Of a stretch of DNA of 64,000 nt, positions 1 to 62,109 are shown one piece after another. Under the pieces are notes generated by a model. It searched no databases. It had not been told where the DNA came from and saw only the letters and a program-made list of their open reading frames with translations. A program made the position numbers and the translations under genes. Source of the stretch: Phragmites australis (taxonomy: Eukaryota > Streptophyta > Magnoliopsida > Poales > Poaceae); contig NC_084927.1 of assembly GCF_958298935.1 (NCBI RefSeq), forward strand, positions 16,210,001 through 16,274,000. The letters run 5' to 3'. Position 1 is the first letter of the stretch. Every line of letters begins with the position of its first letter.

Positions 1-3000
1 TAACGCCACATGTGCAAGCTTGCTGCTTTACTTCAGACGTGGTGCTCCCATCATGATGAGGATCTTTAGCAAGTTTAGCTTTTTTCCGAGTAACCATCTC
101 GGTGTTTGCAATTTCTGACTGCCTTCTGAGTTTTTTTACTGTACTTTTGGATATAACTTTCTGCTCATATACTGATACTGCTGAAGGCATACCAGGCTTT
201 TCATCAGAATCAATGTCTTTGCTTTCATCCTTAATCTGTGATGATGATTCTGGAAAATAGGGGCAGTATTAATAACACTATCATTAACAGAAACAATGTT
301 CTAAAAAGCGCTAGGCAAGCGACAGCGTGGCGCCTACTGGGAGTGATAAGGCGGACACTTTTAAAATAGTGAACAGAAGTGTTAAAAATAACAGATTGAT
401 AGGTATGACTGTTAGAAATTATCCATCACTAGAAGCAAGTGCATGGAGTTAAGGGAGGTTGTCGTATAAATTAGGTTAAATCGGCTTTGTGACATTTATT
501 GGCATTTGCTGGTGGACACCGCGAAGTCAATATTACACTGAGTGACACTACAAAATTGCAGACATTTCCAGAGCTGTTAGGATAAACACCAGCCGAGAGG
601 ATAGCCGGGCGGCATTGGCTACTAGGGGAGGGACTGGACTATAGATTGGGGAGACTTAGAAATATTGGGGGAGACTAGATTAATTCTTCATGCTTCGTTT
701 GATCTAGGTGCAATGCCACATATATATAACCGGCTAGGGAGTATCCCAGCCAGCATACAAGTCCCAATTCAAACCCACTTCTATCTCTGAACTCTATCTC
801 TAATTCTTATCCTGATTTAAACTAACTAATCCTATCTTATCTCCTAAACCGAATTGATTTAAACCAAACTGGACTCTTATCTCTAAACCGGACTGATTTT
901 ATCTCCTAAACCGACTAGACTTCCTCTTCTAAACAGTAATCCTTCACATAACAAGAGCACTGTCCATTAAAATACTAATTTGCAAAATTTTGGAGGGGCA
1001 TGGGGGGAGGTGGGAGGTGTTGCAAATTCATATTTTCTCATGGATACGGATCACTTCTGTGTGTCAGTGCAGTTAAGATCCCATCCAAATGGGGCCTGTC
1101 TAAAATAGTAAAAAATGACTTCTCCACAAGTCTTTATTTTTCTGGAAAAAGTCCACTTTACTCCCCTAAACTATTTCACCGGCTGTGTGTTCCAGGAAAT
1201 GACCCTGATTTCATTAAGTCACTCATTGAATTGACTTTGCAATGCCCTCCAGCGATCAGTAGTTAGAAAACAAAACCTTGCTGCACTGCATCCAACTGTT
1301 CAAGAAAGAAGACAGGATACAGCACTGTCATAGTGTCATGAAGCTTCATACCTATGAATATGTGTCTATAAACTGTCCACATTTCTATGCAAAACAGAGT
1401 CATAAGAGTGGCAGACAAGTTCAAATGCAAAAACTCAACCATGCACCCTGCTGAGGTACGACCACTGAACTGTTCTGCCACCTCAACATTTAGTAGAAGA
1501 AACAAATATGGTAATGGAATAAAATGGGTTGCATCAGAACGAAGTATTAAAAACACTAGCAGTTTGAAAATAAACAATATAGTATAAGATAAAACTGACC
1601 GGATTCAACAATTGAAGAAGGTTGAAGGATATTCACAGATAGATCAGCTAATGTATGTAATGCATCTAGAGCTGAGCTTTCATCTGCAAAACAAGGGCAT
1701 ATGGAAGGTTTGCACGTATAGATGGAATGAAAGCAAGAATCCAACAGGTTGACCTTACAATTTATCCAGCATCACACAAAAGTATAACATTATAAAAACA
1801 ATAAATTCTCAATCAGGCCATTTGCATAGCAGCAAACTCTTTTGAGTGTGATAAGTGACAACTGATAACAATGTATGGTTCTATTTATGTTTCCCATGTG
1901 AGAGATATCAATAAATATAATTTTATAGTGCGTCAAACCAATTAGAGACGGCGAATATTCTGAAACAGATTGTTTTATGAGATCATTCTGAAACAGAAAT
2001 TGATGATGACAAAGATGGTATAGAACATATTTATTTTTGTATTCCAAAAATTGAGAAAATTTTGTACTGCACAGTTTCTAAATGTTTGTCCACCACTCAA
2101 CCTTGATGAAACTTTTGCCTCGCGCTAGAAGAAAGAGTTCTCTTGTCATTACATAATATAGGACATGTTTGCTTTTATGCTTTACATTTCACTTCCACAA
2201 ATTGAGAAAGTACTGTGATGTACAGTCTCAGAAAAACCTACCCCAACTTGATTGGGACTAAAAGGCTTTGTGTTGTTGTACAGTTTCAGAAAAGAAACAA
2301 AACCAATTTATCCATTGTTCAATTTCCAACTTGCTTGGGAAAGAGAACGCTGTTGGCATTCGATAATTCAGTACTGCTCAACAGAAAATAAAATATAAAC
2401 ATTAAATTGCTAGAGTAGTCATACCGCAAAAAAACAGTTGACTTCTTTTATTCGATGTGCTAGATGGCCATGCAGTTTTACTTCCCAATGCCTCCAGCTC
2501 TGATTCCTCTTTAGCCTTTCTCGCACTATGCCCTTCTTCAGTGCCACTGCAAGCCTCTCTGTCATCCTCAAACTGATCACCTTTTTTGTGTGCAGCTTTT
2601 TTCCTCCTCTTCTGAGATCTCTTTACTTTTTTCTGAGACTTACCAGATGCAGCACCTTCGTTAGTCATCAAATAGGATGCACCTTTGGAATAGTCACCAG
2701 TTTCAGCTTCCCTACTTCCTAAGCTACCTTCAGGGTAATCAGCATCCAAATGAAACCCATGCAACTTTGAGCTTCCCATCTCTGAATCAGCATTCTGCAA
2801 ATGCCATACAGGGATCTTGATCGTACAATCACTTTACTAAATGAGTGACTAAGAAAAATAAGAGAAGGCACATATTCTACTTTCTTACATTTCGGTCACT
2901 AGTTTTAACAGGAGACGTGAACATACAATCACCAGATCTTCCAGGTGTTTGAGAAGCCTGAGGTGAGCCTCCCCTTTGACCTACCTCTGCTAGAGCAAGC

Positions 3001-6000
3001 GCAGCTCCATGAGCTCCTTCATCATCACCATTGTTAGCATCTGGTTTTGCTTGTCTATTTGCTACACCCCTGTCATCTCGATGGTACATACTTGCGACAG
3101 GTACTCTTGGAGTCCTTTTTCCAACAGCATGTGGCCTGTTCCCTACAAAAAGGTCTAGAAAGACTTCAAGACCTGAAATCCTCAATCTTATTGTCACTGT
3201 TTGAGGAACACGAGACTACAACATTCTTTTTTATGGTATGGCAGTGTTAGGTTCTAATATCTGATAGAAAGTAAGTTGTTATATCTTAACTTCAGTTAAG
3301 TTCACAAGCATTTAAGAGTTGTTGATATTTGCGGGGAGGGGGGGGGGGGATGCAACCACATATATGGGGCGCAAATATGAAAACGTTTTAAGGAAAAATG
3401 TAAAATAAGTGTTTCGTTTCGGGTGATCTATTTATGGTCCAGGAACAAAATGAATTGTGACAAAAGTAGCTTTGCTAAAAGAGACATAAATCCCATGTGC
3501 AATTGCAAGGCTTGCGGTTGACTCTATTGAAATCAAGACTAGCTGGATTTGAAGCACATAATCTTCAATAGTGCTCTGCTTCTTTCCCCTATTATTATTC
3601 TCAAGAATAAGCATGCAGATGATAAAAACTAACGAACGATGCCTAATAAACAAGGGTTAATTAGATCCATGCCGTTGCAATTTCACCGGTTTTGAAACAT
3701 GCCACTACAAAGTTGGAAATTGTAAACATGCCATCGCGATTTGCTTCTTCTTCGAGATAATGTCATTATGTTACGTTTTTTTGGACCAAATTGCCCATAC
3801 CTCCTTCCTCCTCCCTCCTTATTGTCTTCCTCCTCCTTCCACTCACTCTCTACAAGCAGCTCACCGACCACTTTGGCTTGCTGAAGCTCAGGCTCGCGCC
3901 CCACTTTGATGTGCTCTACACTCGTCGCCGTGCCTTCAACGCATGCACCCACCGCACGCTCGAATCCTTACACCGCTAGGAGTCCTCCATCAACAGATCT
4001 CCCACGCACTCGACCACCTCGATTTAGGGACGTTCCTCGGGTTCATGGTCATAAAGCTCGAGGAGGCGGACGCAATGCCTGCCGAGATGTTGTCCACGCT
4101 CAAGTGTTGCGTTGATCCAATCAAGTTTGTCATGGACACGGTTGCCAACGTGTTCCCGGTGGATGGCCATGAGTTGAAGAACCACGCGGACTTGGCTTGG
4201 GCGTGTGTGTTCATTCTCGAGGCGACCATGCCAACGCTGGCGGACCCAGACCAAGAGATCAGGGTGGCGCAGACCTAGACCTAGAAGATTAGAGCAACCT
4301 AGATCTAAGTGGATCGGGTTCGGGAAGCTCTAGATCTAAGCGGCAGGGAGGACGGTGACGAGGCCGGTGCTGACCATGACACGAGCAGCAACGACAGGGT
4401 CGCCGGACAACTCACTGATGGCAGGACCGCCGCTGCTACCGTTGTCACCCTTAAGAGGGTGTTGCCCCGCTATTACGGCTGAAACGACGACCTCGAGACA
4501 ACGGATTTGTCAAACAATGAGAATATATCGTCTTCGGACATGAGAGCGGGAGGGTAGTGCGGCGAGCAGTCGTCATTGTTGACACTGGTGGTGGTGGGAG
4601 GAGGTGTTCGCTGGAAGCCATGGAGGGGAGTGGAGGATCTCGTTAGCGGTCATGGACGAGAGGAATGAGTTGGGGAATGGGAGAGCTAAGAAGGGAGATG
4701 GGGGTAGTTTGGTCCAAAATTTAACATAATGGCATGGTTACAATTTCGAAAGTGGTCGTGGCATATTTCGAAACTGGTAAAATTGCAATGGCATGTATCT
4801 AAACAATCACTAATATTTTGTTCCCACATTAGCTAGGTAATATAATAACTGATTTCACAAAATGTGAGTATCAAAGAGAGGTTACGGTATTTTGCTCTTG
4901 GGACTGGGTATATCACAGAAAGATGAGTCATAGGTACATGGGAATATCTCAAATTACCTCCAAAACATTTCTTCTTCAACAAAGAAAGGCATCCATAGCT
5001 CGATGAATCAGGCTGAGATTGCAATAAATCAGGGTAACGTGTATCAGATGTTTTAGACACAGATTGAAACTTAGCACAGCCACGCTTCTGTGGCTTCCTA
5101 GAAGCTTTTGGTGAACCATTGCTTTCACAATCACTGTGACTTCCATCCTACAGTTCAGAACAGATGTCCTTGTGAGTATTTTCAATAAATGTAGCGAAAC
5201 GATATAACATTATTCTAGAGTGTAAATCAAGGCTGCTCAAACCGCATATGCCACCACATAAGAAGTAGATCCACCATTCTGTGACACCATTTCAATCAAT
5301 GACACTGAATGCCTGACAATATTTGAACAAGTGCCAAATGTTTCACAACCAATTGAGATTTTAGCATGGAACTAGTAAATACAGGTGACAATTACAATCA
5401 GGTATTTGGAGCTGCCAAGCATTTCAGTACAACTATACTGACGAATGCAACAAACAGTTCTAGATCTTAGAATTTGTTATTGATGCCAAACTAATTACTG
5501 ATTTTGCATATGCCAAAACTCAAAAGAACAGGTTTCTAAGACTTCTCTTATGATACTACTTTTTAGTCAATGCTCACAAAGATGCAAACAGAAAAGAAAA
5601 ATTTCTCATTCAAGCTTCAACTTTTTAAGAACATTCACAATACTTTTCAAGTATTAGAGAAAAGAATTACAGAAGCAGTAGATATAGTAAATAACTAAAT
5701 CTTGAAGTGTATGACCATTTAAAAATTCTTACCAGAATATTGTAGTGATCAGTCATCATCGCTATTAACCCCGCAGCAGTAGCGGTTCCCTCCGGAAGAG
5801 ATAAATATGCCTGGATATGCCCCACATCTAAGTCTAGCACAACAAATCGTATATAGGAAAATACTAATGAAATAGCAGAAAAAATATGAATTCAAGCAAA
5901 TTAAGGTTTGCTACCTAAGTGAGCTGATCTACTGAACTGATCTACCGAAATTTAGGTTATTAAATGGAAAAGTCGGCTATATATAATGTGACCAACCCAG

Positions 6001-9000
6001 TATTTACCTTATTAATGTTGTACAGAGCCTCCACCATTTCAGATGTTCTATCACGGATAGCACCAGCAATCTAGAGAGTGAAATGGAAAATCAGTACATT
6101 GAAAGGAGGTCACAAACTAGATATAAATTTCTCAGGTGATCATGTTGAATGTAGGGCACGTGCAACCACATAAGCGCCTTTCTGTTGTCTGAGTTCTGTC
6201 TAGAGAAGCATAAAACAAACCTTTCTCCAATCTTTTCCATATTTTCTGTAGGCTCCATAAAAGCGCTCGAGCTCATCTTTGCTCCACTGAGACCCAAGCA
6301 TGTCTGAAAACTTTTTCTTCTGCAAGTGAGTTTTTCTTTGATCAATGACCAAGATGAAGTTAAGGTACTGCTAACAACTCGAATGCATTAGCAGTACGCC
6401 AGTACCCGAAACGATGCTTGAAACCGCACTTTTTCCTTGAAAGCATAAGTCTTCTAGAAAAAATTACTATCACTTGACAGTCCACATGATACTACCATAT
6501 CATGTAAACAAGCAGAAGTCGATAATGTTCTTTACAGAATATGAAAAACGAAGAAAAGAAATTGCATGTGAGAAGAAACAATATTGATTTTCGCATATAC
6601 TTACTCGCACTTTACTTTTATGTACATTTGTTTCATCTTTATCCTTCCAATCTTCATTGATTTTGGGATAGCGTTTATTTGCATTTCTCATTTTTCTTGA
6701 TGGGATAAGTCCTTGTGCTGCTGCATGGTCTTTGTGGGGCTGCATCTAGGACATTAGGACAGCATCTAGGACAGCATCTTAGACTAGAGGACAGCATCTA
6801 GGACAGCATCTAGGACAGCATCTAGGACAGCATCTAGGACAGCATCTAGGACAGCATCTTAGACTAGCATCTTAGACTCTCATCTTAGACTAGCATCTTG
6901 GCATATGCTTGGCTGGCCATGGGCCTATAAATATGTATCCCCAACCCCTCAGGTTGGCATGGCATTGTATGAGAAGTGAGAAATAGACCAGAAAAATTTG
7001 CCCCAACTCCTAGTGTCATCCTCTCTATGAGAGTAAGAATTCTGCTACTACCAAGAGTAAGAATTCAGCGACTTACAACTGGTATCAGAGCCTGTTTATC
7101 CTGTAGCCTGAGCATCTCTTGCTCATCTCCCCCCTCAGCCTCGCAGCAGCCCCAGCTAAGAGCAGCAGCAGCCCCGGTTGCTCCTGCTCACTCCTCTCCC
7201 TCTGCACAGACGAGCAGCAGCTCGTCTGAAGCAGCCCTCTCCCCACGCAGCAGCTCTCCCCCGGTAGCGCGTCATGTCCGCAGGGCAGTCTCAGCGCTCG
7301 GTCGCCTCGAGCACGCGGCGTCGGCAGGAGGCCGAACTTGCCGCGGCAGAGGAACGCAAGCGAGCGGCGGAAGAGACCGCTGCGGCGGCGGCAAGGGCGT
7401 CGAGGCTAGCAGCGGCGGAGCTGGCAGCAGCCAGAGCGGAGGCAGAAGCAGCGGCGGCGGCGGATGCAGCGCGTGCGGCGGCAGCGGAGGTCGAGGCTCT
7501 GCGCGGCAGCACCGGCAGCTCCATTTCTGCTGACGACAGCGCCGACGCGGATCTCGAGCTGCCGGAGGCAGAGGCAGCGCGAGAGCGGGCGGCACAGTGG
7601 GCAGCCGCGCACACCCACGAGCGCGGCGGCAGCCCAGACAGGCGCGGACGCGCCGGCGGCGCTCCTGGAGGAGGCGCGCACGCCGGCGGCGCTCCTGGAG
7701 GAGGCGTGCATGGCAACGGTGGCGGACGGGTCGATGGAGAGCGCGGCCTTCACAGGCGGCGTGGCTCTCTCTCCCCGGATCGGTACCGTGGTCACCACGG
7801 TTTCCAGGCTGTTGTCAGGGACGTCGGCCCCGGCGGTGGGTGGCCTACCCTCACTAAGACCAACTATGTTGAGTGGGCTGCGGTGATGAGGGTAAAGCTC
7901 CAGGTGCGGCACATGTGGGAGGCAGTCCGGTACGGCGACGTCGACTACGACCAGGATCGACGGGCGCTGGATGCCCTCATCGCTGCAGTCCCGTCCGAGA
8001 TGCAGTTCTCGCTTACCAATAAGCGGACTGCCAAGGAGGCTTGGGATGCCATCGCTGCGGCACGCATCGGCAGCGACCGCGCCCGCAAATCCACACTGCA
8101 GGCACTTCGCAAGGAGTGGGAGAACCTGGCCTTCAAGCCAGGTGAGGACGTTGATGACTTTGCTCTCTGTCTCAACACTCTGTTGCAGAAGATGGTGCAG
8201 TTCGGCGACGACACCTACGGCGAGGAGAGAGCCGTCGAGAAGCTCTTCCGCTGCGTCCCCGAGAAGTACAAGCAGATGGCTCGCTCGATCGAGTCTCTGC
8301 TGGATCTCTCCACGATGTCGATCGAGGAGGCGATAGGTCGCCTCAAGGTCGTCGACAGCGATGAGCCACAGTCTCTCTCGGGGCCCATCACCACTGGCGG
8401 GAAGCTCCTTCTCACTCGGGAGCAGTGGGATGCCTGCCAGGGTGACCGGAGGAAGGGGGAGCCTTCTTCCACGACAGGCGGCCGCAAGCGTGGCAAGCCG
8501 CGCAAGGCGCGCAGAGACGCCGAGGCCGGGGCGCGAGGACGTGCCGAGGGTGATGCCCGCGGAGGCGCCCAGGGCGGCGCCGCCGGCAAGCACAAGCCGG
8601 CACGAGACGACACCTGCCGCAACTGTGGCCGGCTTGGCCATTGGGCCAAGGACTGTCGTCAGCCACGACGCGGCCAGGCCCACGTCGCACAAGCGGAGGA
8701 GGAGGAGCCGGCTCTGTTCATGGCTCATGCGAGCATAGAGCTACCTCCAGCGGCACCGGCCGCAGCGGCTCTCCTCCACCTTGACGAGCCAAAAGCCCAC
8801 GCCCTCCTCGGTGACGGCTCCGGCAGCGACAAGACTGACGGGTGGTGCCTCGACACCGGCGCCACCCATCACATGACCGGTCGACGGGAGTTCTTCACCG
8901 AGCTTGACTCCAGCGTCCGAGGCTCCGTCAAATTTGGGGATGCCTCCGGCGTGGAGATCAAGGGCGTCGGTTCCGTCATCTTCACCGCCGTGTCTGGTGA

Positions 9001-12000
9001 GCACAGGCTGCTCACCGGAGTCTACTACATTCCCGCGTTGAGGAACTCTATCATCAGCTTGGGACAGCTGGATGAGAACGGTTCGCGCGTGGTGGTTGAG
9101 GATGGAGTCATGAGGATTTGGGATCGCCGTCGTCGCCTTCTTGCCAAGGTAACCAGAGGCACAAATCGACTCTACGTCCTTAACGTGCAGGTGGCACAAC
9201 CCCTCTGTCTCGTCGCTCGTCGGGACGACGAGGCGTGGCAGTGGCACGAGCGCTTCGGGCACCTTCACTTCGAGGCCCTGAAGCGGCTCAGTGCCGCAGA
9301 GATGGTGCGAGGCCTGCCGTGCCTCGACCATGTGGAGCAGCTCTGCGACGTCTGCGTGTTGACGAAGCAGAGGCGACTCCCCTTTCCCCAGCAGGCGAGC
9401 TTTCGAGCCAAGGAGAGGCTCGAGCTTGTGCACGGGGACTTGTGTGGCCCGGTGACACCGGCCACACCGGGAGGACGACGCTACTTCCTGCTGCTCGTCG
9501 ACGACCTCTCCCGCTACATGTGGGTGATGGTCCTCGGCAGCAAGGGAGAGGCTGCGGACGCCATCAGGCGCGCGCAGGCTGCTGCGGAGGCGGAGTGCGG
9601 CCGCAAGCTGCGCGTGCTGCGCACCGACAACGGCGGCGAATTCACGGCGGCTGAATTTGCGTCGTACTGCGCTGACAAGGGCATTCAGCGCCACTACTCC
9701 GCGCCGTACAGCCCGCAGCAGAACGGCGTCGTCGAGCGGCGCAACCAGACGGTTGTGGGGATGGCTCGGGCCCTCCTCAAGCAGAGGGGGATGCCGGCTG
9801 TCTTCTGGGGAGAGGCGGTGGTGACGGCCGTCTATATCCTCAACCGCTCGCCTACCAAGGCGCTCGACGGCAGGACGCCGTACGAGGTTTGGCATGGGCG
9901 CAAGCCGGCGGTCTCCCACTTGCGGGTCTTCGGCTGCCTCGCGTTCGCCAAGGAGCTTGGCTACATCAGCAAGCTCGACGACAGGAGCACTCCGGGAGTG
10001 TTCATCGGCTACGCGGAGGGCTCGAAGGCCTACCGCATCCTCGACCCGAAGACACAGCGTGTGCGCACGGCGCGCGACGTTGTGTTCAACGAAGGGCGAG
10101 GATGGGCGTGGGACAAGGCGGTGGACGACGGCTCGGCTCCAACGTACGACGACTTCACTGTCGAGTACGTCCACTTCGAGGAAGCTGGGGGAGTAGGCAG
10201 CTCTTCTTCGACGAGCGTGTCTACCCCAGTCCCCGAGCCTCCACCGACCCCGGCGCCTGCTACTTCAAAAGCACCACGCTCTCCAGCCAGGACCTCGGCT
10301 GCGATGAGTTCTTCGCCAGCTCCACCACAGCCGGCAACGCCACGCACTCCAGCACCGACAGGCACCTCTCCGGGCACGTCTACTCCAACACCAGCTCGTG
10401 TCGAGCACAGCCCGGTTGAGCTCGCTACTCCGCTCTCTCACGACGAGGAGCGCATCGACGCGTACCACGACGGCGAGCCGTTGCGGTACCGTACGATGGA
10501 GAACCTTCTCGGCGACCAGCCGGTGCCGGGACTGGTGCCTCACGATCTGGAGGCGCAGTTGCACCTTGCGTGTGACGACGGCGAGCCTCGGTCGTTTGCA
10601 GAGGCCGAGAGACACGCGGCATGGCGCGCCGCGATGCAGTTGGAGATGGATGCGGTTGAGAAGAACCGCACCTGGGAGCTTGCTGACCTCCCTCGTGGTC
10701 ACCGAGCGATCACCCTTAAGTGGGTGTTCAAGCTGAAGAGGAATGAAGCCGGCGCCATCGTCAAGCACAAGGCTCGCTTGGTGGCACGAGGTTTCGTGCA
10801 GCAGGAGGGGGTCGACTTCGACGACGCCTTCGCTCCCGTGGCACGGATGGAGTCCGTGCGACTCCTCCTTGCGCTAGCTGCCCAGGAGGGCTGGCGTGTT
10901 CATCACATGGACGTCAAGTCGGCGTTCCTCAACGGCGACTTGAAGGAGGAGGTCTACGTGCACCAGCCGCCGGGATTTACGATCCCCGGCAAGGAGGGCA
11001 AGGTGTTCCGCCTGCGCAAGGCCCTCTATGGCTTGCGACAGGCGCCGAGGGCGTGGAATGCCAAGTTGGATTCCACGCTAAAGGGGATGGGCTTCGAGCA
11101 AAGCCCGCACGAGGCGGCCATCTACCGACGGGGCAGTGGAGGAACTGCTCTGCTGGTGGGTGTCTACGTCGACGACTTGGTGATCACCGGCACCAAGGAT
11201 GCGGAGGTGGCGGCATTCAAGGAAGAGATGAAGGCCACCTTCCAGATGAGTGACCTGGGGCCTCTCTCCTTCTACCTGGGGATCGAGGTGCACCAGGATG
11301 ACTCCGGGATCACGCTTCGACAGACCGCCTACGCCAAGCGCGTCGTTGAGCTAGCTGGGCTCACCGACTGCAACCCAGCTCTCACTCCGATGGAGGAGAG
11401 GCTGAAGCTGAGCCGCGACAGCACGACGGAGGAGGTGGACGCTACGCAGTACCGGCGTCTTGTGGGGAGCCTTCGCTACCTCGCCCACACACGGCCGGAC
11501 TTGGCATTCTCCGTCGGCTACGTTAGTCGGTTCATGCAGCGACCGACGACGGAGCACCAGCAGGCTGTGAAGAGGATCATCCGCTACGTTGCGGGGACTC
11601 TCGACCACGGCCTCTACTACCCTAGGTGCCCTGGGGCGGCCCACTTCGTCGGGTACAGCGACAGCGACCACGCCGGCGACATCGACACCAGCAAGAGCAC
11701 GAGCGGGATCCTCTTCTTCCTCGGCAAGTGCCTCGTTAGCTGGCAATCGGTCAAGCAGCAGGTGGTGGCCCTTTCCAGCTGCGAGGCCGAGTACATAGCG
11801 GCCTCCACCGCTTCGACTCAGGCGCTCTGGCTCGCTCGACTGCTTGGTGATCTCCTCGGCAGAGACACTAGAGCGGTGGAGCTCAGGGTGGACAGCAAGT
11901 CCGCTCTAGCCCTGGCAAAGAATCCCGTCTTCCATGAACGGAGCAAGCACATCCGGGTGAGGTACCACTTCATCCGAGGCTGTTTGGAGGAAGGGAGCAT

Positions 12001-12541
12001 CAAGGCGAGCTACATCAACACCAAGGATCAGCTTGCGGACCTGCTCACCAAGCCTCTTGGGAGGCTCAAGTTCCTTGAGCTCTGCTCCAGGACCGGGATG
12101 GTTCAATCTTCCCACAAGACGACGCACAAGACTTAGGGGGAGAATGATGGGATAAGTCCTTGTGCTGCTGCATGGTCTTTGTGGGGCTGCATCTAGGACA
12201 TTAGGACAGCATCTAGGACAGCATCTTAGACTAGAGGACAGCATCTAGGACAGCATCTAGGACAGCATCTAGGACAGCATCTAGGACAGCATCTAGGACA
12301 GCATCTTAGACTAGCATCTTAGACTAGCATCTTAGACTAGCATCTTGGCATATGCTTGGCTGGCCATGGGCCTATAAATATGTATCCCCAACCCCTCAGG
12401 TTGGCATGGCATTGTATGAGAAGTGAGAAATAGACCAGAAAAATTTGCCCCAACTCCTAGTGTCATCCTCTCTATGAGAGTAAGAATTCTGCTACTACCA
12501 AGAGTAAGAATTCAGCGACTTACATTTCTCACCAAAGCCAT
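1..12541 (-). CDS. ALY: ALWAYS EARLY / LIN9-type chromatin regulator, 5' half, interrupted by a retrotransposon
   Basis: Plant relative of animal LIN9/fly Aly, a subunit of MYB-E2F-RB (DREAM/MuvB-like) complexes acting on nuclear chromatin. Coding exons read on the minus strand with GT-AG sites and matching phases: 12541-12525 joined to 6692-6605 across the inserted element, then 6319-6221, 6070-6008, 5810-5733, 5147-4958, 3142-2889, 2794-2425, 1683-1600 and 249-1, giving about 497 residues before the left edge. The start is the ATG at 12541 (MALVRKMRN...). Residues about 36-115 form a SANT/MYB-like domain ([19 protein letters not shown], then [30 protein letters not shown]). Next come the family signatures DGCLSLLK-like (here [10 protein letters not shown]) and [11 protein letters not shown], a Lys/Arg-rich tract (2425-2794) and [17 protein letters not shown]. 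The DIRP domain expected downstream lies outside the window. The family assignment rests on motifs I recognise; exon joins are inferred without transcripts. Confidence 0.88.
250..1599 (-). other. ALY intron with imperfect pyrimidine-rich repeats
   Basis: This intron lies between the exon ending at 1600 (donor gtcagt) and the exon starting at 249 (acceptor ttttccag). It shows no convincing coding potential. At about 775-935 a CTCTTATCTCNTAAACCG-like phrase recurs several times at irregular 30-50-base spacing, preceded by tatatataa near 720 and followed by a G-rich tract near 990-1020. This resembles decayed LTR sequence, but I cannot define the ends. Confidence 0.35.
2237..2283 (+). mobile_element. 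3' tail of an Au-like SINE in an ALY intron
   Basis: The sequence ccccaacttgattgggacta followed by aaaggctttg and a TTG-rich end matches the well-known 3' terminus of grass Au SINEs. The A and B box half was not found upstream, so this is a 5'-truncated copy within the intron between the exons ending at 2425 and starting at 1683. Confidence 0.55.
3662..4801 (+). mobile_element. Pack-MULE-like element in an ALY intron
   Basis: The left end (from 3662) and the reverse complement of the right end (to 4801) align for about 100 bases. Shared words include catgcc, ttgcaatttt/c-acc, cgaaa/tgaaac-atgccac, gaaattgtaa-catgcc, ttatgtta and ttttggaccaaa. The left arm has an extra ~30 bases. Long imperfect terminal inverted repeats around a GC-rich, gene-like core are typical of Mutator-like Pack-MULEs. 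A clean 9-bp target duplication was not found. The element lies wholly in the intron between exons 5147-4958 and 3142-2889 and points opposite to the gene. Confidence 0.68.
3830..4278 (+). pseudogene. FRIGIDA-like gene fragment carried by the Pack-MULE
   Basis: The core carries an open frame from 3943 (111 codons, stop after 4278) preceded in other frames by a related segment ([20 protein letters not shown]). Its phrases, such as [38 protein letters not shown] and [11 protein letters not shown] followed by a Pro/Ala-Asp-Pro tail, resemble the FRIGIDA-like domain of plant FRL proteins, where a Cys-x-Asp-Pro-x-Lys-x-Val-x-Asp stretch and an ELAWACVLILE-type helix are typical. The frame changes and the lack of the family's flanking regions indicate a captured, non-functional fragment. 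The family call is from memory of motifs and could be wrong. Confidence 0.5.
6698..7077 (+). repeat. 5' LTR of the copia element in ALY
   Basis: It runs from tgatgggataag to gcgacttaca. Positions 6740-6899 hold a tandem array of a 12-bp unit (ggacagcatcta) with diverged cttagactagcat units at its right end. A TATA-like cctataaatatg is at 6924-6935. On the opposite strand, an ATG at 6745 opens a frame that runs out of the LTR into ALY exon 2. Confidence 0.95.
7080..7092 (+). other. Primer binding site of the copia element
   Basis: tggtatcagagcc, complementary to the 3' end of initiator methionine tRNA, sits two bases after the 5' LTR end and is the standard minus-strand primer site of plant copia elements. 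Confidence 0.92.
7274..12136 (+). CDS. Intact Ty1-copia gag-pol polyprotein, 1620 aa
   Basis: Single uninterrupted frame, GC-rich compared with its surroundings. Residues 1-189 are an unusual Ala/Arg/Glu-rich, coiled-coil-like then Gly-rich extension. The copia gag begins near residue 190 ([16 protein letters not shown]). A CCHC knuckle ([14 protein letters not shown]) is near 448 and the aspartic protease (DTGATHHM) near 526. The GAG-pre-integrase region is near 660. Integrase catalytic residues lie in HGDLCGP (about 719), RTDNGGEF (about 782) and VVERRNQ (about 819). Reverse transcriptase has YVDDL near 1298, and RNase H (SDSDHAGD) is near 1462. The end is marked by [11 protein letters not shown]. 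The order PR-IN-RT-RH is copia-type. Earlier in-frame upstream starts were not found; the ATG at 7274 opens the frame about 180 bases after the PBS. The lineage within copia is not assigned. Confidence 0.96.
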   Translation: MSAGQSQRSVASSTRRRQEAELAAAEERKRAAEETAAAAARASRLAAAELAAARAEAEAAAAADAARAAAAEVEALRGSTGSSISADDSADADLELPEAEAARERAAQWAAAHTHERGGSPDRRGRAGGAPGGGAHAGGAPGGGVHGNGGGRVDGERGLHRRRGSLSPDRYRGHHGFQAVVRDVGPGGGWPTLTKTNYVEWAAVMRVKLQVRHMWEAVRYGDVDYDQDRRALDALIAAVPSEMQFSLTNKRTAKEAWDAIAAARIGSDRARKSTLQALRKEWENLAFKPGEDVDDFALCLNTLLQKMVQFGDDTYGEERAVEKLFRCVPEKYKQMARSIESLLDLSTMSIEEAIGRLKVVDSDEPQSLSGPITTGGKLLLTREQWDACQGDRRKGEPSSTTGGRKRGKPRKARRDAEAGARGRAEGDARGGAQGGAAGKHKPARDDTCRNCGRLGHWAKDCRQPRRGQAHVAQAEEEEPALFMAHASIELPPAAPAAAALLHLDEPKAHALLGDGSGSDKTDGWCLDTGATHHMTGRREFFTELDSSVRGSVKFGDASGVEIKGVGSVIFTAVSGEHRLLTGVYYIPALRNSIISLGQLDENGSRVVVEDGVMRIWDRRRRLLAKVTRGTNRLYVLNVQVAQPLCLVARRDDEAWQWHERFGHLHFEALKRLSAAEMVRGLPCLDHVEQLCDVCVLTKQRRLPFPQQASFRAKERLELVHGDLCGPVTPATPGGRRYFLLLVDDLSRYMWVMVLGSKGEAADAIRRAQAAAEAECGRKLRVLRTDNGGEFTAAEFASYCADKGIQRHYSAPYSPQQNGVVERRNQTVVGMARALLKQRGMPAVFWGEAVVTAVYILNRSPTKALDGRTPYEVWHGRKPAVSHLRVFGCLAFAKELGYISKLDDRSTPGVFIGYAEGSKAYRILDPKTQRVRTARDVVFNEGRGWAWDKAVDDGSAPTYDDFTVEYVHFEEAGGVGSSSSTSVSTPVPEPPPTPAPATSKAPRSPARTSAAMSSSPAPPQPATPRTPAPTGTSPGTSTPTPARVEHSPVELATPLSHDEERIDAYHDGEPLRYRTMENLLGDQPVPGLVPHDLEAQLHLACDDGEPRSFAEAERHAAWRAAMQLEMDAVEKNRTWELADLPRGHRAITLKWVFKLKRNEAGAIVKHKARLVARGFVQQEGVDFDDAFAPVARMESVRLLLALAAQEGWRVHHMDVKSAFLNGDLKEEVYVHQPPGFTIPGKEGKVFRLRKALYGLRQAPRAWNAKLDSTLKGMGFEQSPHEAAIYRRGSGGTALLVGVYVDDLVITGTKDAEVAAFKEEMKATFQMSDLGPLSFYLGIEVHQDDSGITLRQTAYAKRVVELAGLTDCNPALTPMEERLKLSRDSTTEEVDATQYRRLVGSLRYLAHTRPDLAFSVGYVSRFMQRPTTEHQQAVKRIIRYVAGTLDHGLYYPRCPGAAHFVGYSDSDHAGDIDTSKSTSGILFFLGKCLVSWQSVKQQVVALSSCEAEYIAASTASTQALWLARLLGDLLGRDTRAVELRVDSKSALALAKNPVFHERSKHIRVRYHFIRGCLEEGSIKASYINTKDQLADLLTKPLGRLKFLELCSRTGMVQSSHKTTHKT
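12131..12144 (+). other. Polypurine tract of the copia element
   Basis: acttagggggagaa directly precedes the 3' LTR, and the stop codon of gag-pol (TAG) is embedded in it. It would prime plus-strand DNA synthesis. Confidence 0.85.
12145..12524 (+). repeat. 3' LTR of the copia element in ALY
   Basis: It has the same 380-bp length as the 5' LTR and two adjacent base differences. It carries the same 12-bp tandem array (about 12187-12346), ends acttaca, and is followed by target repeat TTTCT and the intact first codons of ALY. Confidence 0.95.
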
Positions 12542-12560
12542 TGAAAATTGCACAACCTAC

Positions 12561-30289: not shown

Positions 30290-32874
30290 CTACACAACAG
30301 GTGCATTTTTAGGACAGTACTTGTACGTGTGACCTGTTTCATTGCACTGACTACATCGCTTGACCCTAGGACACGCTTCGGATTCATCCATATCATTGCG
30401 AATCCGGTGAGTTTGTTGACGGCCTGGTGCGTTCTTCATCTTTTCCAAATCAGGCACATAGATTTGTGAAGGCCTTGGATTACTTGTAAAAGTGTCAACA
30501 ATGCCGTAACCATACATCTCATGATTCCAGGGGTTCAGTATTTGATCCTTCATGAAATACTTTGAAACATATTGCCTGGGAAGCATATTGTGCTCCGCAC
30601 ACGAGCTATGATGTGTGTGTACAAGGTTTGTGCAGCAATTGTGGCTTCTGGCAAGTACAAATGCATGTCCCACTCCTAAGCACGCACTCTTGCACATGCT
30701 GCTCACGTCTTCCACCCCTCCGACCCTTATCCCGGCACAGGACATTGAACCTGTGCTCCGCAGTCCCCTCTTGATTTGCGCGATGCATGTGGGCCTTCTC
30801 CATATACTCATATAGCATCCATCCATAGAGCATACGATTATCCTCCATTACATTTTTAGCAGCTGCGTACCGATCAATAGAGTACTTACAAGTCCCATGT
30901 AAAATGCCTTCTACAATTCTAACAAGTGGGAGGGACCTCATTCCTCGCATGACCTAGTTATAAACCTCAGCAAGATTGGCTGTCATTACTCCATATCTTG
31001 CCCCACCACTATCGTATAGCAAAGCCCATTTTTTATTTGGCTCATTACGTATCCACTGTGAAATGCTCCTAATAGCTGACCCTGACCTACTTATTATCTG
31101 CAGTCCAAGAGCTATCGGTTCATCACCAGTAGGTGCAGCCTCCACTGTCTGTTTCAGAGTTAGTTCATCCAGTCTTGCCCATAGGGCATTGAACTTCCGT
31201 TGCTGGTTTTGACTGCACAACTTTTTGAAAAGCTTCATCAACTCTTTGTTTTTGAACTGTCTATAGAAGTTTGCACCCATATGACGCATGCACCACCTAC
31301 TCTTCAGGTCGGGCCACTATGCTGCTACACCCCGTCGAACACTACCATGTTGCATATCCAGCAAAGCCTGCAACAACCCTGCATATCTATCATGAATCAA
31401 ACACACATCTGGCCGGTCAAGAACAATAGCATGTTTCACCCACTCAAGGAACCAATACCAGTTGTCCCCGTTCTCACTCTCCACGAAAGCAAACCCTAGT
31501 GGTAGGATTTGGTTGTTACCGTCGACCCCAATTGCAGACAATATTTGTCCTTTGTACTTCCCAGTCATGAATGTTCTATCCAGGCAAATGATGGGTCGAC
31601 AGTACCGAAATGCTTTGATGGATGCAGCGAATGCAAAGAAAGCACGCTGCAATACTCGTTTCCCGCTGTACTCCGCATCAGTGGAGGGATAATGCTTGAT
31701 ATCATAGTAACTGCCTAGGTTCCTTCCACATATTGTAGCTGATTGACGAGGTAGATTGTGATATGATTCTTCATATGTTCCGAACCTCATCTCAATAGCC
31801 TTCTGTTTCGCCCTCCATGCCTTCGCATAGTTTATTGTGTACTGGAAACTTTGCTCAATAGCACGGATTATTGATCGTGGCTCATACCTTAGGTTGTCCA
31901 TAATCTCCCCCATACATAACATTAGCAATAAAGACAGATGACAGGTTCCGGTGGACGAACTCTATTTTCTTAATGTGACAATTATGTTCCTTGACTATTG
32001 AGCAATGCTAGTAGTCTACCCATTTCCCTCTAAATGCGTGCACCCGTCAAGGACATTGAGGCACCAAACACTTCACATCATACTCCCTTTTACTAGATTT
32101 AACAACCTTGAACTGCCTCCGAAGAGACAACGACCAGAATTTAACTGCATCAATAACATACTCCTTTATAGGGTACATAGCATCCTAAGACACCTCGTTC
32201 TCATGGTACTGCCACGGTGTCCGATCAGCCTCGCTAACCACCAGCTTTAAAAATTCATGATCTCTCCGCTCTGCAGGCACTGGAGCATTACCCTCCTCGT
32301 CAGATGAAACCCCATCGGCAACGGCTTCCTCCAGCTCTTGATCCTCCAACTCCATCTCTTCAATTATACTAGGGATATGCTCCCTCTCATCGGCTACACC
32401 CATCGAATGCATCTCAGGAATATCCCTAACATCTGCCCTGGTCCCGACGTTTACTGGGTCTGATTAATCTTCCACTGCCTCACTTGGTGCCGCTACTGCT
32501 TTCACAGAGTTCACCTCTGTTTGATCTTTTCGTTACACCTCAGCTAACAAAATCAGAGGCAGGCCACGTTCACAAGATATATCTATATACTGCCTCTAAG
32601 TTGATGTGGCTTCGATCGGAACCACCTCGCCAAAGTATCCATGACTAGCACAGTTGAGGACAGCTTTCAGCTTAAGATCATGTTGTTGTGGATCCAGTTG
32701 GAAAAACTGCATGAGCCACTTGCACACACCCGCAATGGTCCTCTCATTAGCTTCACTAAAACCCTTCATAACATGACGAAATCTAGACAGATCTACATCG
32801 TTAGGACCGTACCTAATTTCACCATCACCATAATATATCTGAAAAATTAATTTATCTGCCATCCTTGGAAACAT
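30290..32874 (-). pseudogene. MuDR-type MULE transposase, degenerate
   Basis: Pieces in order on the minus strand: an N-terminal PB1-like/MuDR domain (32874-32596, IYYGDGEIRYGPNDVDLSRF); an acidic linker (32412-32185); a DNA-binding region in about 32180-31960 (CLVPQCPWRVHAF-like); the MULE DDE domain (31928-31317, ICLDRTFMTGKYKGQILSAI, FVESENGDNWYWFLEW, LIHDRYAGLLQAL); CMRHMGANFYRQFKNKELM (31289-30954); a SWIM-type C-x-C...C-x-H; and a CCHC knuckle (CSQCNETGHTYKYC) at about 30330. In-frame TAG codons occur at about 31314-31316 and 30951-30953, and frame changes occur near 30606 and 31930-32185, so it is inactive. The core catalytic Asp residues remain. Confidence 0.8.
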
Positions 32875-35847: not shown

Positions 35848-36624
35848 TCACATTGGTTGGAGTAGGCCACTTAAGCATACCTTCAGTTTTGCTTTGATCA
35901 ATTGCCACCTCTTCATAGAAATAATATGGCCTAAATAGACCAATCTGTCTTGGGCATAAGAACACGTAGATCTCTTAATGTAGAATTGATGCTCTCTTAA
36001 TTTATCCAAGACCTGTCTCAAATGATCCACATGATCTTCCAAGGTAGCACTATAGACTAATATGTCATCAATGAACACCAATGCAAACTTCCTCAAAAAG
36101 GACCCAAGAATGTCATTCATAGCACATTGAAATGTAGCTAGGGCATTTGTAAGCCTAAAAGGCATGACCCTAAATTGGTAATGGCCATGATGGGTTTTAA
36201 ATGCAGTCTTGTATTCATCCTCCACATTCATTATTACTTGATGGTAACCAGCCTTCGTATCTAAGCTAGTAAACCATTTTGCTGCAACCAACTCATCCAA
36301 AATTTCATCAATGATAGGTATACGAAATCTGTTTTTGATAGTCAAAAAGTCCAACTTCCTATAGTCCACACAAAAATGCCATGATCCATCTTTTTTTGGG
36401 ACCAAGAGTACTGGAGAAGCAAAAAGGCTAGAGCTAGGAATAAGGAGACCAGACTCTAGAAGCTCCCTAACATGCTTTTTTATCTGATCTTTATGGAAAG
36501 GTGAATATATATAAGGCTTAGAATTAACTAGGACATCATTAGGGATGAGGGGTATGGAGTGATCACAAGTTCTGGCAGGTGATAAGGTACTGGAAACACC
36601 AAAACCATTTTGATATTCAGACAA
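35848..36624 (-). pseudogene. Chromovirus reverse transcriptase
   Basis: The 258-codon open segment contains [60 protein letters not shown] and the active-site FIDDILVYS, matching gypsy RT. The frame breaks near 35848, beyond which thumb/connection sequence ([18 protein letters not shown]) continues in another frame to about 35800. LTNALATFQ replaces the usual LTNAPATFQ. Confidence 0.85.
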
Positions 36625-49529: not shown

Positions 49530-51065
49530 CTTGCTGAAATTTATGCTAATAAGTTGTCATGCCATGCTTTGATATGCAAAGAGGCCTTAGTTTCACTCAA
49601 GAATATATCTAGCTCTTCGCCTCCTGCTGTTGCTAACCTTTTGCATGAGATTTTAGATGTATTTTCAGCTGAAGTTCCCCCGGGATTACCACCAATTTAA
49701 GGGATAGAACATCAAATTAATTTGATTCTAGGAGCAACTTTGCCAAACTATGCTGCATATAGGATCAACCCGGAAGAGACTAAGGAAATTTAGCGACAAG
49801 TCCAAGACATTTTGGATCACGGGTACGTACGAGAAAGTCTTAGTCCTTGTGTTGTTCATGTTCTTTTGGTTCCTAAGAAAGATGGTAGTTGGCATATGTA
49901 TGTTGATTGTAGAGTCATTAATAATATTACTATAAGATATTGTCACCCTATCCCTAGGTTAGATGATATATTTGATGAGTTGAGTGATTCTATAATTTTT
50001 ATTAAAATTGACTTGCGAAGTGGATACCATCAAATTAGGATGAAACTTGGACATGAATGGAAAATTACGTTTAAAACGAAGTTTGGCTTGTATGAGTGGT
50101 TAGTAATGCCTTTTGGGTTAACTAATGCACCTAGTACTTTCATGCGATTGATGAACAAAGTTTTACGTGCTTTCATTGGAAGATTTGTGGCGGTATACTT
50201 TGATGATATCATGATTTATAGTCAGTCACATGAGTCACACTTTGATCATCTATGTGCTGTTTTTAATGCTTTGAGAGATGTATGTTTGTTCGGTAACCTC
50301 GAAAAGTGCATCTTTTGCACGGATCGAGTCTTTTTTCTTGGCTGTGTTGTTAGTCCATATTTAATAGAAGTAGAGGAAGCAAAAATTAAAACCATAAAGT
50401 GCTGGCCAATCCATAATACTGTTACTCAAGTGAGAAGATTTCATCGTCTTACGGGTTTCTATCAGCGCTTTGTGCGGGATTTCACCACCATTGCTGCCCC
50501 ATTGAATGAATTGATGAAGAAAGGAGTGGTTTTCAAATGGGGACCTACACAAGAAAAAATATTCAAGTTGTTGAAATAGAAACTTACCCATGCTATTTTA
50601 CTCCAACTCCCTGATTTTGGTAAGACCTTTGAGCTAGAGTGTGATGCTAGTGGGATTGGAATTGGAGGTGTGTTAATTCAAGAAGGTAAATCTGTTGCTT
50701 ATTTCAGCAAAAAATTAAGTGGGCCAAGTCTGAATTATTCCACTTATGATAAAGAATTGTATGATTTAGTTCGTGTGCTTGACATTTGGCAACATTATCT
50801 ATGGCCCAAAGAATTTGTTACACATTCTGATCATGAATCGCTGAAATATATTAGGAGTCAAGCTAAATTGAATAAAAAACATGCTAAATGGGTCGAATTT
50901 ATTGAATTTTTTCCATATATCATAAAATATAAGAAAAGAAAGGACAATATGATTGCTGATGCGCTTTCTAGGCGTTATACCATGTTATCTCATCTTGATC
51001 ATAAGATTTTTGGTTTGGAGACCATTAAGGACTTATATGCTGTTGATTTGGATTTTAAATAAGTG
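49530..51065 (+). pseudogene. Gypsy reverse transcriptase and RNase H
   Basis: [75 protein letters not shown] and the active site YFDDIMIYS within the open piece 49812-50579, which ends in a nonsense codon (TAG) at 50577-50579. RNase H continues 50581-51062: [64 protein letters not shown]. Confidence 0.87.
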
Positions 51066-52311
51066 CTTGAACATTGTAAAGAGTGGAAAATATGGAATAA
51101 ATATGTGCTGAATGAAGGATTGCTCTATCGTGCTAACAAGCTAGCTCCGTTCGTCTTTTGTTGTTACAGGAGGCGCATGAAGGAGGATTGATGGCACATT
51201 TTGGAGCAAAGAAGACTGAAGATGTGCTGGCCACTCACTTCTTTTGGCCAAAGATGAGATGAGATATCAAATGCTACGTGTCCCGATGCACCACTTGCAA
51301 CAAAGCTAAATCTCGCTTGAATCCACATGATCTTTACATGCCTCTCCCTATTCCTAGTGAACATGGGAGGATATTTCTATGGATTTTGTTTTAGGACTAC
51401 CTAGGAAAATGAGGGGGGATAGCATATTTGTAGTTGTGGATAGGTTTTTCAAAATGGCACATTTTATACCTTGTCACAAGAACAATGATGCTACAAACGT
51501 AGCTAATTTATTTTTCAGGGAAATCGTTCGACTACATGGAGTGCCTAATACTATCGTCTCAGATCGTGACACAAAGTTTTTTAGTCACTTTTGGGGATCA
51601 CTTTGGAATAAATTGGGGACGAAACTGCTGTTTTCTACTACGTGTCATCCCCAGACCAACGGTCAAACAGAGGTTGTCAACCGTACATTATCGACCATGT
51701 TATGGGTTGTTCTAATGAAAAATTTAAGGATGTGGGAAGAGTATTTACCGCATATTGAATTTACTTACAATAGGTCGGTACACTCTACCACCAAGGTAAG
51801 TCCGTTCCAGGTAGTGTATGGATTTAATCCCTGTGCTCCTATTGATTTGCTACATTTGCCTACTTTTGAAAGACTTAATTTAGATGCTAAGAAATGTGCT
51901 GAATTTATTCTTAAGTTGAATAAATCAACTAAAAAGAAAATAGAGAGCATGACTAAAAAGTATAGGATTGCTGGAAGTAAATGTAGGAAGGAAATAAAAT
52001 TTGAACCGGGTGATTTAGTTTGGTTGCATTTGAGGAAAGATAGGTTTCCAGAACTAATAAAATCAAAGTTGATGTCTAGAACTGATGGAACATTTAAGAT
52101 AATTGAGATAATCAATGATAATACATACAAATTGGATCTACCTATAGATTTTGGGGTTAGTCCCATATTTAACATTTCAGATCTGAAGTCCTACTTAGAA
52201 GAAGAAGACAAGTTTGAGTCTGGGACGACTCCAATTCAAGAGGGGGAGGATGATGAGCCCATGGCTCCTTCAGATACGATCAATACCACCAATAATCCTC
52301 AAATCATATAA
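51066..52311 (+). pseudogene. Gypsy integrase and pol C-terminus
   Basis: The HHCC region is broken at about 51160-51320 ([35 protein letters not shown]). The catalytic core is in the open piece 51379-52311: first Asp in MDFVLGLP, second in [10 protein letters not shown], and Glu in [13 protein letters not shown]-terminal [20 protein letters not shown] follows. No chromodomain is seen. The frame enters the 3' LTR at 52251 and stops at 52309. Confidence 0.87.
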
Positions 52312-53974: not shown

Positions 53975-55342
53975 GAGGGGTTGTCTTTGTATATACTTTA
54001 TCTTACTTATATTGCATTTGCATTGTATAGCATTTTGTAAGATAATCATGTTAGCAAGCTTCACTTATATGTTCTTTGCACTTTCTTGTACTAGTTGTGA
54101 ATTTGTACTAAGTGCAGTGGATGTATAACAATTTGTGCAAGCTTAGGCTCTTATTGAAACATGGTATAAAATATGTTGAACAAGCTTGTCTTTTCTAAGA
54201 ATGAACTTGAAATGTGAACATAATCTTATGTCACTTTTGAGTATTTATTTTAGCTTTATTAGTGCTTAAATTATGGCTAGTTCTGTGAAAAGTTTGTGCT
54301 AGGTCGCTTTGTTCAGTTCAGTGGATTAGGGGTCTTTAACCTTTGTCTATGTAAATATTTATCCTATGATTAACCATTAGGAGAGTATGCACTCTTTTAT
54401 GTCGCAAAGGCGTAACTTATTTTGGCTTTGTGAAAAATTGCATATTTTGAATCCTATATTGAGTTAATAAAATGAATGATCAAGTTTTGAGCTAAAATTG
54501 AATTCAATATGGTGACTTAAGACTTCATGTGGTTTGCCAAAGAAGTGAATCTATGGTTGCTTAAAACTCACTTGAGAATAGTTAAATGATCAAATGAGAA
54601 AGTTAACTTGCGTTTTCTAATCTGCAAAGAATGTTCTTTTTCATGTTGTTAAACTAAGGCTTGGATTGATATGTGGGTGTTTGCATAGCCTGTCGGGTTG
54701 AATTTGGTTGCTTAGTTTGAATTTGACATAGCACTAGTTTTTCTAATCTTTGCACAGGTCATAAAACGGTGGATGCTTTTATGGTGATATCTTTTGGATA
54801 ATTGAACAACATGATCAAAACTTGCTTCACTCCTAGTGTCTGTGACATGAACTAACTTCGAGACTTTGTGCGTCTTTGAGTTATATTGTTTACTCCTCAT
54901 AGTGCTTTGACATCTCTAGTCCTTGCAAATTCTTTGTGATCTATATGTGAAGCTTTATAGGCTTGCATTTCATTTGCACATCTTTCATATTGTCTTGAAT
55001 CCTTGAAGTTTGCATTTCTAAAGGGGAGAAAATGTGCCAAAGATATTATGCACAAATATTCAATAGAGGGGGAGAAAATTGCATTTATCTAGAAATGTAA
55101 GGGAAAAAAAGGAAAATGTGCAATCATCAAATAGGAGAATGGGAGTTTTGGGGTTTTGACTTTTTCTTGTCATTTTGAGGTTTTTAGCTCGTCTTTACCT
55201 CTCTTGGGGTATTTACAACCTTTATTATGCCAATTGATATGTTTTGCTGTTTTTTGAGTTTTTTGTCACTTGAATGAGCTTATCTTGTTTTAATTTCTTC
55301 AAACCAAAATCTTTGTGCTTTGAGAGTTGTTAATGCACTCAT
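53975..55342 (+). other. Sirevirus 3' non-coding region
   Basis: About 1.4 kb between pol and the copia insertion. No env-like ORF is seen. Polypurine-like words (aaaggggagaaaa, agagggggagaaaa, aagggaaaaaaaggaaaa) cluster at 55020-55115, as is typical of Sireviruses, which often carry several such motifs upstream of the 3' LTR. Confidence 0.6.
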
Positions 55343-55899
55343 TGAAGGGTTACGGGTAGGCTACGCTAGCATAAAATAAATTTTCTCTACCGCATTCAAC
55401 CAGGAAGCCATGCGAGTAGGGGATCATGAATCGTTACCACTTGACGAGCAGTGCAACGGAAGAAGAGTTGGAGCAGACCAATCCAACGTCGTGCGCGTCA
55501 AGTAGTCGATTGTCAACCTCGTCCCGAGCACGTCCCGAGCACCTTTCGAGTACTCGTGGGTACGTCCCGAGTACTCCCGAGCAGATCAGTACCGCAATAG
55601 TAGCAGCGCCTCTACGGTATCCACACGTACAAGGATGGAATCGTCGTGCGTCGGTGTGCTAGCACCGCGCGCCCGGCTAGGGTTTCGAAGGGAGTTCGGG
55701 AATAGGAGGCGGCCAGGGTTTCTAAAAAACTCAATGCGTCTTGACCCCTGCCTATTCTTATATAGAGCACGCTAATGGGCCTTTAATCAACATTAAAGCC
55801 CATTATGACTCTAAACCCTAATGGTCCTTTAATCAATATTAAAGCCCATTAGCAGATCCAATCCGCAAACTCAATCGCCTCTAGGGCATATCACCAACA
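55343..55899 (-). repeat. 3' LTR (sense of the element) of the minus-strand copia
   Basis: In plus orientation it reads tgaagggttacggg ... catatcaccaaca. It contains a GC-rich block with repeated cccgagcac/cccgagtac words at 55516-55575 and a repeated aatcaa(c/t)attaaagcccatta phrase at 55786-55853. Confidence 0.93.
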
Positions 55900-56813
55900 A
55901 TCTCCCACTTGCACTAGAGTCAGTACAAGTTTTATATTCCATCCCCTTAAGTGTGTGACCCGTTAGGTTCATGTGTAAACGGCCGCTATCCGGAAACCCT
56001 TTTCCGAATTGCAAGTCAATAGCGGTACCTAGCAGGACATATTGACTCCCGAATGCACACAAAGATCATATCGGCTGAACCTTGATATACTCATGCACCA
56101 ATCCCTTTACCACACGATACCAGTCAAGCTCAAGGCGAGATTCGTGCCACCCTTGTGATAGCTCGACCATTCACTCGATCAAGTAGTGGATTCACCATGA
56201 TTAACTCTTTAATCACATTGGCATGGCCATGCACTTTCCAATCCAACTACCTCGAGGGGCCCAGAGATATCTCTCCCGTTATTTAGGAGGGGTAAATTCC
56301 ATCTTGATCACTCACATCCCACGACATGTTTCATAACATACCCGAAAGCAACCTTTATAACTACCCAGTTACGGAATAGCGTTTGGAAGCCCCTAAGTGT
56401 GTTACTACACATTCTGGAATCAATGATGATCTCAGGTCAAAGGATTCTGTAGGTACACCATTTGAGATAACAACTGATGGCACATTAAAAATAACAATCC
56501 CAGCAGTATCTCAGGGTGGGTCTATCCAACATCATGTTCTCTAACATGTGTCCACATTACTGATTTGATATCTCCATATCTATGATCCGTGAAACATGAT
56601 CATCATTCAGTCAAATGTGCTAATCTATAAATCATTATTGTCCCACACAATGATATGAGATTAGGGACTATTTAGAATAACATCATAAAAACAAAGAGTT
56701 TCACAAACAAGTCACATACTTGCTGATCAATGTAAATGATAATTATTCATGGAACCAGATAACAATTATCCAAAAGTACATTAGCATAGACAGAACACAT
56801 TCTCTCACATGCA

Positions 56814-62093: not shown

Positions 62094-62095
62094 GG

Positions 62096-62109
62096 ATGGC
62101 TCTGATACC
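62096..62109 (-). other. Primer binding site of the minus-strand copia
   Basis: The plus strand reads ggctctgatacca just inside the right LTR, i.e. tggtatcagagcc on the minus strand, complementary to initiator Met tRNA. Confidence 0.9.

Follow-up and report, generated by a model that had tools for sequence, protein, structure and literature searches.

What becomes of a regulatory gene when a retrotransposon cuts through its first few codons? The question is raised by a copy of ALWAYS EARLY (ALY, LIN9-type) in Phragmites australis, read on the minus strand of the window, by which we mean the whole 64,000-nt stretch of DNA analysed. Genome search places this window at C7:16210001-16274000 of an 848-Mb, 28-contig assembly. 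A preliminary description had put a copia element in codons 5-6 of the gene, and its LTR pair, target repeat, open reading frame (ORF) and joined flanks confirm that it lies there.

The two copia insertions in ALY

The element, here called A, spans 6698..12524 on the plus strand (5,827 bp), antisense to ALY, as delimited by its LTR pair, target repeat and ORF. Its 5' LTR (6698..7077, plus strand, 380 bp) lies on the gene side and its 3' LTR (12145..12524, plus strand, 380 bp) on the promoter side. The LTRs differ at two adjacent bases over 380 bp. They start with TG, end with CA and are flanked by a short target repeat, as is usual for Ty1/copia elements. The repeat reads TTTCT on the plus strand (left copy 6693..6697, right copy 12525..12529, both strandless) and AGAAA on the minus strand. 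A primer-binding-type sequence, TGGTATCAGAGC, which we take to be a tRNA primer-binding match, starts 2 bases past the 5' LTR, and a purine-rich (polypurine) tract, AGGGGGAGAA, abuts the upstream edge of the 3' LTR.

A single, unbroken gag-pol ORF of 1,620 codons runs from 7274 to 12136 on the plus strand (7274..12136). Searched as five separate pieces, it matches the Pfam families Retrotran_gag_2, zinc knuckle, gag_pre-integrs, rve and RVT_2, that is, gag, zinc knuckle, pre-integrase, integrase core and copia-type reverse transcriptase (RT) in copia order. The rve match falls within 9104-10003, upstream of RVT_2 within 10004-12133 in the same polyprotein, the integrase-before-RT arrangement of Ty1/copia. 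Protease and RNase H gave no Pfam match in the five pieces at E 0.001. Element A is a very young Ty1/copia LTR retrotransposon. At a rate of 1.3e-8 per site per year, its own LTR pair gives an age of 0.1-0.2 My. Divergence from the sister element described below yields a range of some 7-26 thousand years, bounded above at roughly 58 thousand, assuming no gene conversion. Gene conversion between older copies could also make the elements alike, but the long, uninterrupted ORF of A argues for youth.

The insertion splits codons 5-6 of ALY. As the preliminary description held, the repeat AGAAA falls here on the minus strand. It takes in codon 5 and two of the three bases of codon 6; the positions it gave for the start codon (12541), the end of exon 2 (6605) and the start of exon 3 (6319) also stand. 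Joined across the element, the flanks encode a sequence that lines up with the start of ALY proteins from grasses. The upstream fragment of exon 2 (12525..12560, minus strand) holds a 19-nt leader, codons 1-5 and part of codon 6, with the ATG at 12541; the downstream fragment (6605..6692, minus strand) contains a methionine codon, Met7, at 6691. The gene continues on the minus strand through exon 3 (6221..6319), where the Myb/SANT domain starts (PF00249, E 6.7e-8), exon 4 (6008..6070), exon 5 (5733..5810), exon 6 (4958..5147), exon 7 (2889..3142), exon 8 (2425..2794), exon 9 (1600..1683) and exon 10 (1..249), which runs off the window. Exons 2-10 read without a stop up to the window edge, and the DIRP domain (PF06584) follows beyond it in two exons at C7:16199298-16199670. 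The window ALY is 78-88% identical to 17 aligned grass rows, and a tree nests it among grass ALY proteins.

All residues of the gene model P0001 are encoded in C7 DNA, the final one at C7:16192834 (the stop codon was not displayed), and the model exons hold no premature stop. P0001 and P0002 include an extra 48-nt exon (6406..6453, minus strand), which is missing from the other 118 of 120 proteins among the matches listed. This exon is in frame and lies within a stretch of C7 intron 2 that is partly unalignable with the corresponding gene on C13; intron 2 measures 285 nt in C7 vs 229 nt in C13.

The window holds many other transposable-element remains. In the ALY intron between exons 6 and 7, positions 3661-4802 form an element whose inverted ends are 84% complementary over 74 nt; it carries a FRIGIDA-like fragment (PF07899, E 1.3e-10; ORF 3943-4278, plus strand) and looks like a gene-capturing DNA transposon; an 8-11-base target repeat was sought at its ends and none was found. 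Far from the gene, a second copia-type element at 55340-62671 has an unbroken 1,320-codon ORF (56814-60776, minus strand) and is bounded by direct repeats resembling LTRs, which agree at 97.7% over 563 bp. A MULE transposase fragment, RVT_1 reverse transcriptase fragments and an integrase piece are found at 31320-31928, 35851-36624 and 49812-52308.

The surprising part of the case is that element A has a twin. Sister element B (C7:16202660-16208485, minus strand; window coordinates -7340 to -1515) lies past the window in intron 10 of the same gene, 8.2 kb from A, in sense orientation relative to ALY and thus opposite to A. Its LTRs (16202660-16203039 and 16208106-16208485 on C7) are both identical to the 5' LTR of A, and across 5,067 bases the internal regions of the two elements show a single mismatch and a single gap. 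Both differences fall within the ORF, and the one-base gap breaks the frame of B. The target repeat flanking B is TGGGC, unlike the TTTCT of A. We considered and rejected a local inverted duplication or inversion, as A and B each have a matching repeat pair and their flanks are unrelated. The 3' LTR of B, which precedes the next exon by ~2.6 kb, could terminate or initiate transcripts there.

Such exact target repeats and unrelated flanks at both elements would not be created by misassembly, which weighs against an assembly or haplotype effect in which the insertions sit on one haplotype or at low frequency and the question of function hardly arises. That reading is an improbable one, in our judgement. 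Reed is outcrossing, and our view comes from a single assembly. Excerpted text of PMC11330502 adds that ploidy varies from 3x to 12x, which also counts in its favour.

How did two near-identical copies come to lie in one gene? Four matches to the LTR query at 99-100% were found, all inside this ALY gene. The next-best matches listed are 91% (full-length) and 93% (partial), plus one 46-base end piece at 100%, in a search that scored 40 of 195 candidates and therefore lists the weaker matches incompletely. Other young pairs exist in the wider family, with 5/10 compared LTR pairs above 99%. For two close copies, the chance of landing 8.2 kb apart is near 3e-5 under uniform targeting and 3e-4 with a tenfold smaller target space. 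In a family of 100 copies, chance alone would put 0.14 pairs in one such span, so that two older insertions, later homogenised, become less unlikely as a coincidence. The co-location could reflect a hotspot for insertion, chance following a burst, or conversion of one copy by another.

Candidate routes to a residual protein

The ALY models on the gene's own contig, P0001 and P0002, both begin exactly at Met7 (6691), beside the junction; P0001 represents 9 members from a single contig, and the start was read in P0001 and P0002. The conceptual protein from Met7, with the 48-nt extra exon included, equals P0001 residues 1-507 letter for letter. The preliminary description had called this methionine native. 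Its position and frame are as described, but native it is not: the position is Val in 55/55 canonical-start grass rows (the 62 rows P0003-P0064 minus seven with other starts), and the codon is ATG in the C7 window and GTG in C13. Three rows from short contigs that start MRN are probably cases of GTG read as a start. Judging from the sequences compared, Met7 is private to the C7 copy and not ancestral.

The frame on the gene side of the 5' LTR is open, as had been noted, and an ATG within the LTR (6743..6745, minus strand) is in frame with ALY, immediately preceded by a stop at 6748. Of the suggestion that an almost complete protein could be translated from the gene side, the general part fits P0001 and P0002, which start at Met7; the part that relied on the LTR ATG is unsupported, given its weak context and the stop just upstream. 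Under that alternative, an antisense promoter in the 5' LTR would drive translation from 6745, adding LTR residues and an RK over the target repeat before Met7. The open, in-frame ATG speaks for it. However, read antisense, the 5' LTR lacks the TATA-like motif TATAWA, of which its sense strand carries one copy (at 6926). Of the 17 ATGs that precede 6745 in the antisense LTR, 14 are out of frame. The LTR ATG itself has a weak context, TAGATGC, whereas Met7 has A at -3, and both models begin elsewhere. The LTR ATG is in frame yet unsupported as a start, and we regard this route as very unlikely.

Met7 is the start we favour. If the annotation picks the longest frame, the Met7 models would imply an exon start 3' of 6745, in the last ~50 LTR bases. 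Met7 may also just be the first ATG usable by annotation.

The preliminary description had also expected the native promoter to read into 5.8 kb of foreign DNA. This was incomplete, as it overlooked an in-frame splice donor at the LTR edge. In antisense, the edge of the 3' LTR reads TGTAAGT, and with the adjoining host bases it forms AAT|GTAAGT, a putative phase-0 donor (T|GTAAGT, 12518..12524, minus strand) that would end the exon at base 12524 and keep the frame of exon 3. This donor matches 8/9 consensus positions, the top score among 347 GT sites in antisense element A, and none of the nine ALY donors scored, which range from 5 to 8 of 9, does better; the donor of ALY exon 7 is the near-identical AAT|GTAAGA. 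Joining 12524 to 6319 is phase 0 on both sides and would leave an open product.

We therefore weighed a route in which the native promoter is used and exon 1 and the exon-2 fragment are spliced from the donor at 12524 to exon 3 at 6319, skipping 6.2 kb. The predicted product would be without residues 7-35 and would keep the Myb domain, and inclusion of the extra exon 6453-6406 would likewise preserve the frame. Besides the consensus match, phase and open product, this route gains from the lack of AATAAA, AATGAA, AATAAT and ATTAAA in antisense element A, motifs of which few are expected at 62% GC, and from the TGTAAGT edge being a subfamily trait. Yet the U1 duplex energy of the donor is ordinary (-5.1), and 10/14 of the top-listed antisense GT sites pair more strongly. 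The element portion of the would-be intron has 62% GC, compared with 33-47% for the remaining ALY introns in the window, which makes it a poor plant intron, and P0001 and P0002 include the downstream exon-2 fragment that this route skips. Insertion at 12/103 points in exon 2 would give such an in-phase LTR donor at random, so no design is implied. On balance, splicing out seems unlikely to us.

The LTR ends were read at 30 of the 48 LTR-query matches. TGTAAGT-type ends occur at 6/30 loci, namely the four ALY LTRs and two LTRs of one C14 element, and TGTTAGT-type ends at 24/30 (four of these 24 being reversed partial matches judged by eye). By this sample, the TGTAAGT edge marks a subfamily. 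The copia family divides by its antisense LTR end, and only the TGTAAGT type yields a full GTAAGT donor. A bolder reading holds that the new LTR end, ACTTACA on the sense strand, lets genes splice an antisense copy out in frame, so that it is tolerated in exons, with a hotspot or the co-landing of sisters behind the pair. This reading would cover two hits within a few tens of thousands of years and the finding of only two close copies, but we give it slender odds. Among the papers listed, literature searches found no matching published case of a spliced copia insertion in an exon, which does not prove absence.

The C13 homoeolog and the state of the C7 copy

Genome search gave ten DIRP matches forming five loci, on C7, C13, C1, C2 and C24. 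The second, intact ALY copy that the preliminary description had advised looking for is the one on C13: its exon 2 is whole and starts MASARKVRN, and the homoeologous target site is unbroken. Protein P0003 (Phragmites australis) agrees with C13 at 35/35 residues of exon 2 and at 95/95 and 58/58 residues of the last exons; the remaining stretches agree at 70-100%, with the lower values where the alignment enters introns. The loci on C1, C2 and C24 are more distant, 44-66% identical over the aligned stretches. An earlier view, formed from the best 120 of 702 matches, of a single-copy grass ALY whose loss would be lethal, by analogy with the Arabidopsis triple mutant, was dropped once the five loci were found.

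Between C7 and C13, dN is 0.062 and dS 0.170 (471/497 codons), and dN/dS is about 0.37, on codons kept after a local-identity filter, which trims poor alignment and may lower dN. An excerpt of PMC11330502 describes P. australis as an allotetraploid whose subgenomes are separated by about 31 My, with the Ks peak at 0.2. The dS between C7 and C13 is close to this peak, as would be expected of homoeologs.

The loss of C7 ALY is probably buffered by C13 and the further DIRP loci. In Arabidopsis, as excerpted from PMC8500230, the aly triple mutant is lethal (citing Ning et al. 2020), and aly double mutants grow on DNA-damaging media like wild type. Given these phenotypes, the C13 copy and the redundancy among DIRP loci, tolerance of a broken C7 copy is expected. 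Subgenome-specific roles of C7 and C13 could still make the loss matter.

Is C7 ALY already decaying? Against C13, it has 73 vs 32 changes with Zizania as outgroup, and each of the five outgroups gives it about twice the changes of C13. When the rival is Eleusine, Panicum or Stipagrostis, 0/5, 0/5 and 1/5 outgroup tests, respectively, exceed chi-square 3.84. With the asymmetry unclear against other grasses, a prior relaxation of the C7 copy is unsupported. Private changes number 31 in the window copy and 17 in the next row (957 columns, 18 grass rows), its branch length is 0.082 vs about 0.077 for the chloridoid path, and it has 7 private indels including the extra exon, as many as Aegilops. 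We considered an accelerated pseudogene and rejected it, as the copy is the lone member of its branch, the branch length is close to that path and, of the rivals tried, only the contrast with C13 is consistently significant; what is kept is the asymmetry. The tree puts the C7 copy beside Eleusine and Eragrostis (support 96/97), with the placement of C13 unresolved; subgenome history or a long-branch effect may lie behind this position. A 15-residue microexon, LKDRKNTLKDVEKTE, at C13:12185223-12185276 has no credible match in the C7 ALY gene, which also carries in-frame deletions in its C-terminal half; a deletion of 10 residues falls at a conserved place.

A plain null allele heading to pseudogene, with the Met7 models a mere product of annotation, could draw on the two insertions, the missing microexon, the 10-residue deletion and the faster change of C7 than C13. 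Set against this, every model residue is encoded, the exons lack premature stops, several isoforms are modelled, and dN/dS of about 0.37 points to constraint over most of the homoeologs' history. We hold a plain null to be somewhat unlikely, though a serious contender.

The outcome we favour is a buffered, damaged C7 copy with a Met7 product. A member of a recently active copia family integrated antisense in codons 5-6, and a near-identical element integrated in sense in intron 10 of the same gene. The plant would tolerate the damage, the C13 copy being whole and further LIN9-type loci present. The remaining C7 gene still encodes every model residue to the C-terminus, presumably because the insertions are too young for decay. 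Residual protein would most likely come from Met7, on a transcript with its 5' end or a splice acceptor in the last few dozen LTR bases, and would be ALY minus the first six residues, with Myb and DIRP intact. The Met7 product is inferred from gene models, and a gene model is not a transcript. Taken as a whole, recent loss of integrity in one ALY2-like homoeolog, buffered by C13 and with a residual Met7 product, is in our view the probable reading, by some way short of certain.

The kind of event is ordinary, a young retrotransposon in one homoeolog; the twin insertion and the consensus-type donor at the element's edge are unusual. In C7 ALY, the loss of one homoeolog of a duplicated regulator to retrotransposon insertion can be dated and is still under way, and the sequence offers three escape routes open to testing (Met7, the LTR start and the LTR splice donor). 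The twin insertion is a concrete test of random target choice by sister copia copies.

Comparison with known systems

As in known LTR-initiated chimeric transcripts, an LTR here adjoins a coding exon and the frame is open. The difference is that the model start is the gene's own derived Met7 and that an antisense promoter is hypothetical in this case. In maize waxy and Adh1 alleles, Ds/dSpm or retrotransposon insertions are spliced and partial function is left. The Phragmites case resembles these in having an element in the transcribed region, but splicing is known there and predicted only here, and it differs in that an antisense copia element lies in a coding exon with a donor at its very edge. 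That transposable elements carry splice donors and acceptors is stated in an excerpt of PMC6888579.

Excerpted text of PMC11742667 describes a wave of insertions in P. australis, dominated by copia elements and dated to 0-500,000 years ago, that often struck genes or their vicinity. Element A resembles the Ty1/copia elements of this wave in its uninterrupted gag-pol, short LTRs, 5-bp repeat, youth and position in a gene. Two features set this locus apart from the wave as excerpted there: two near-identical members lie in opposite orientations in one gene, and the LTR edge offers a consensus-type antisense splice donor. The gene itself belongs to the same family as Arabidopsis ALY1/2/3, the LIN9 homologs of the DREAM complex, in which, from the excerpt of PMC8500230, redundancy is shared among three genes; in Phragmites it would be shared between subgenome homoeologs and three further DIRP loci.
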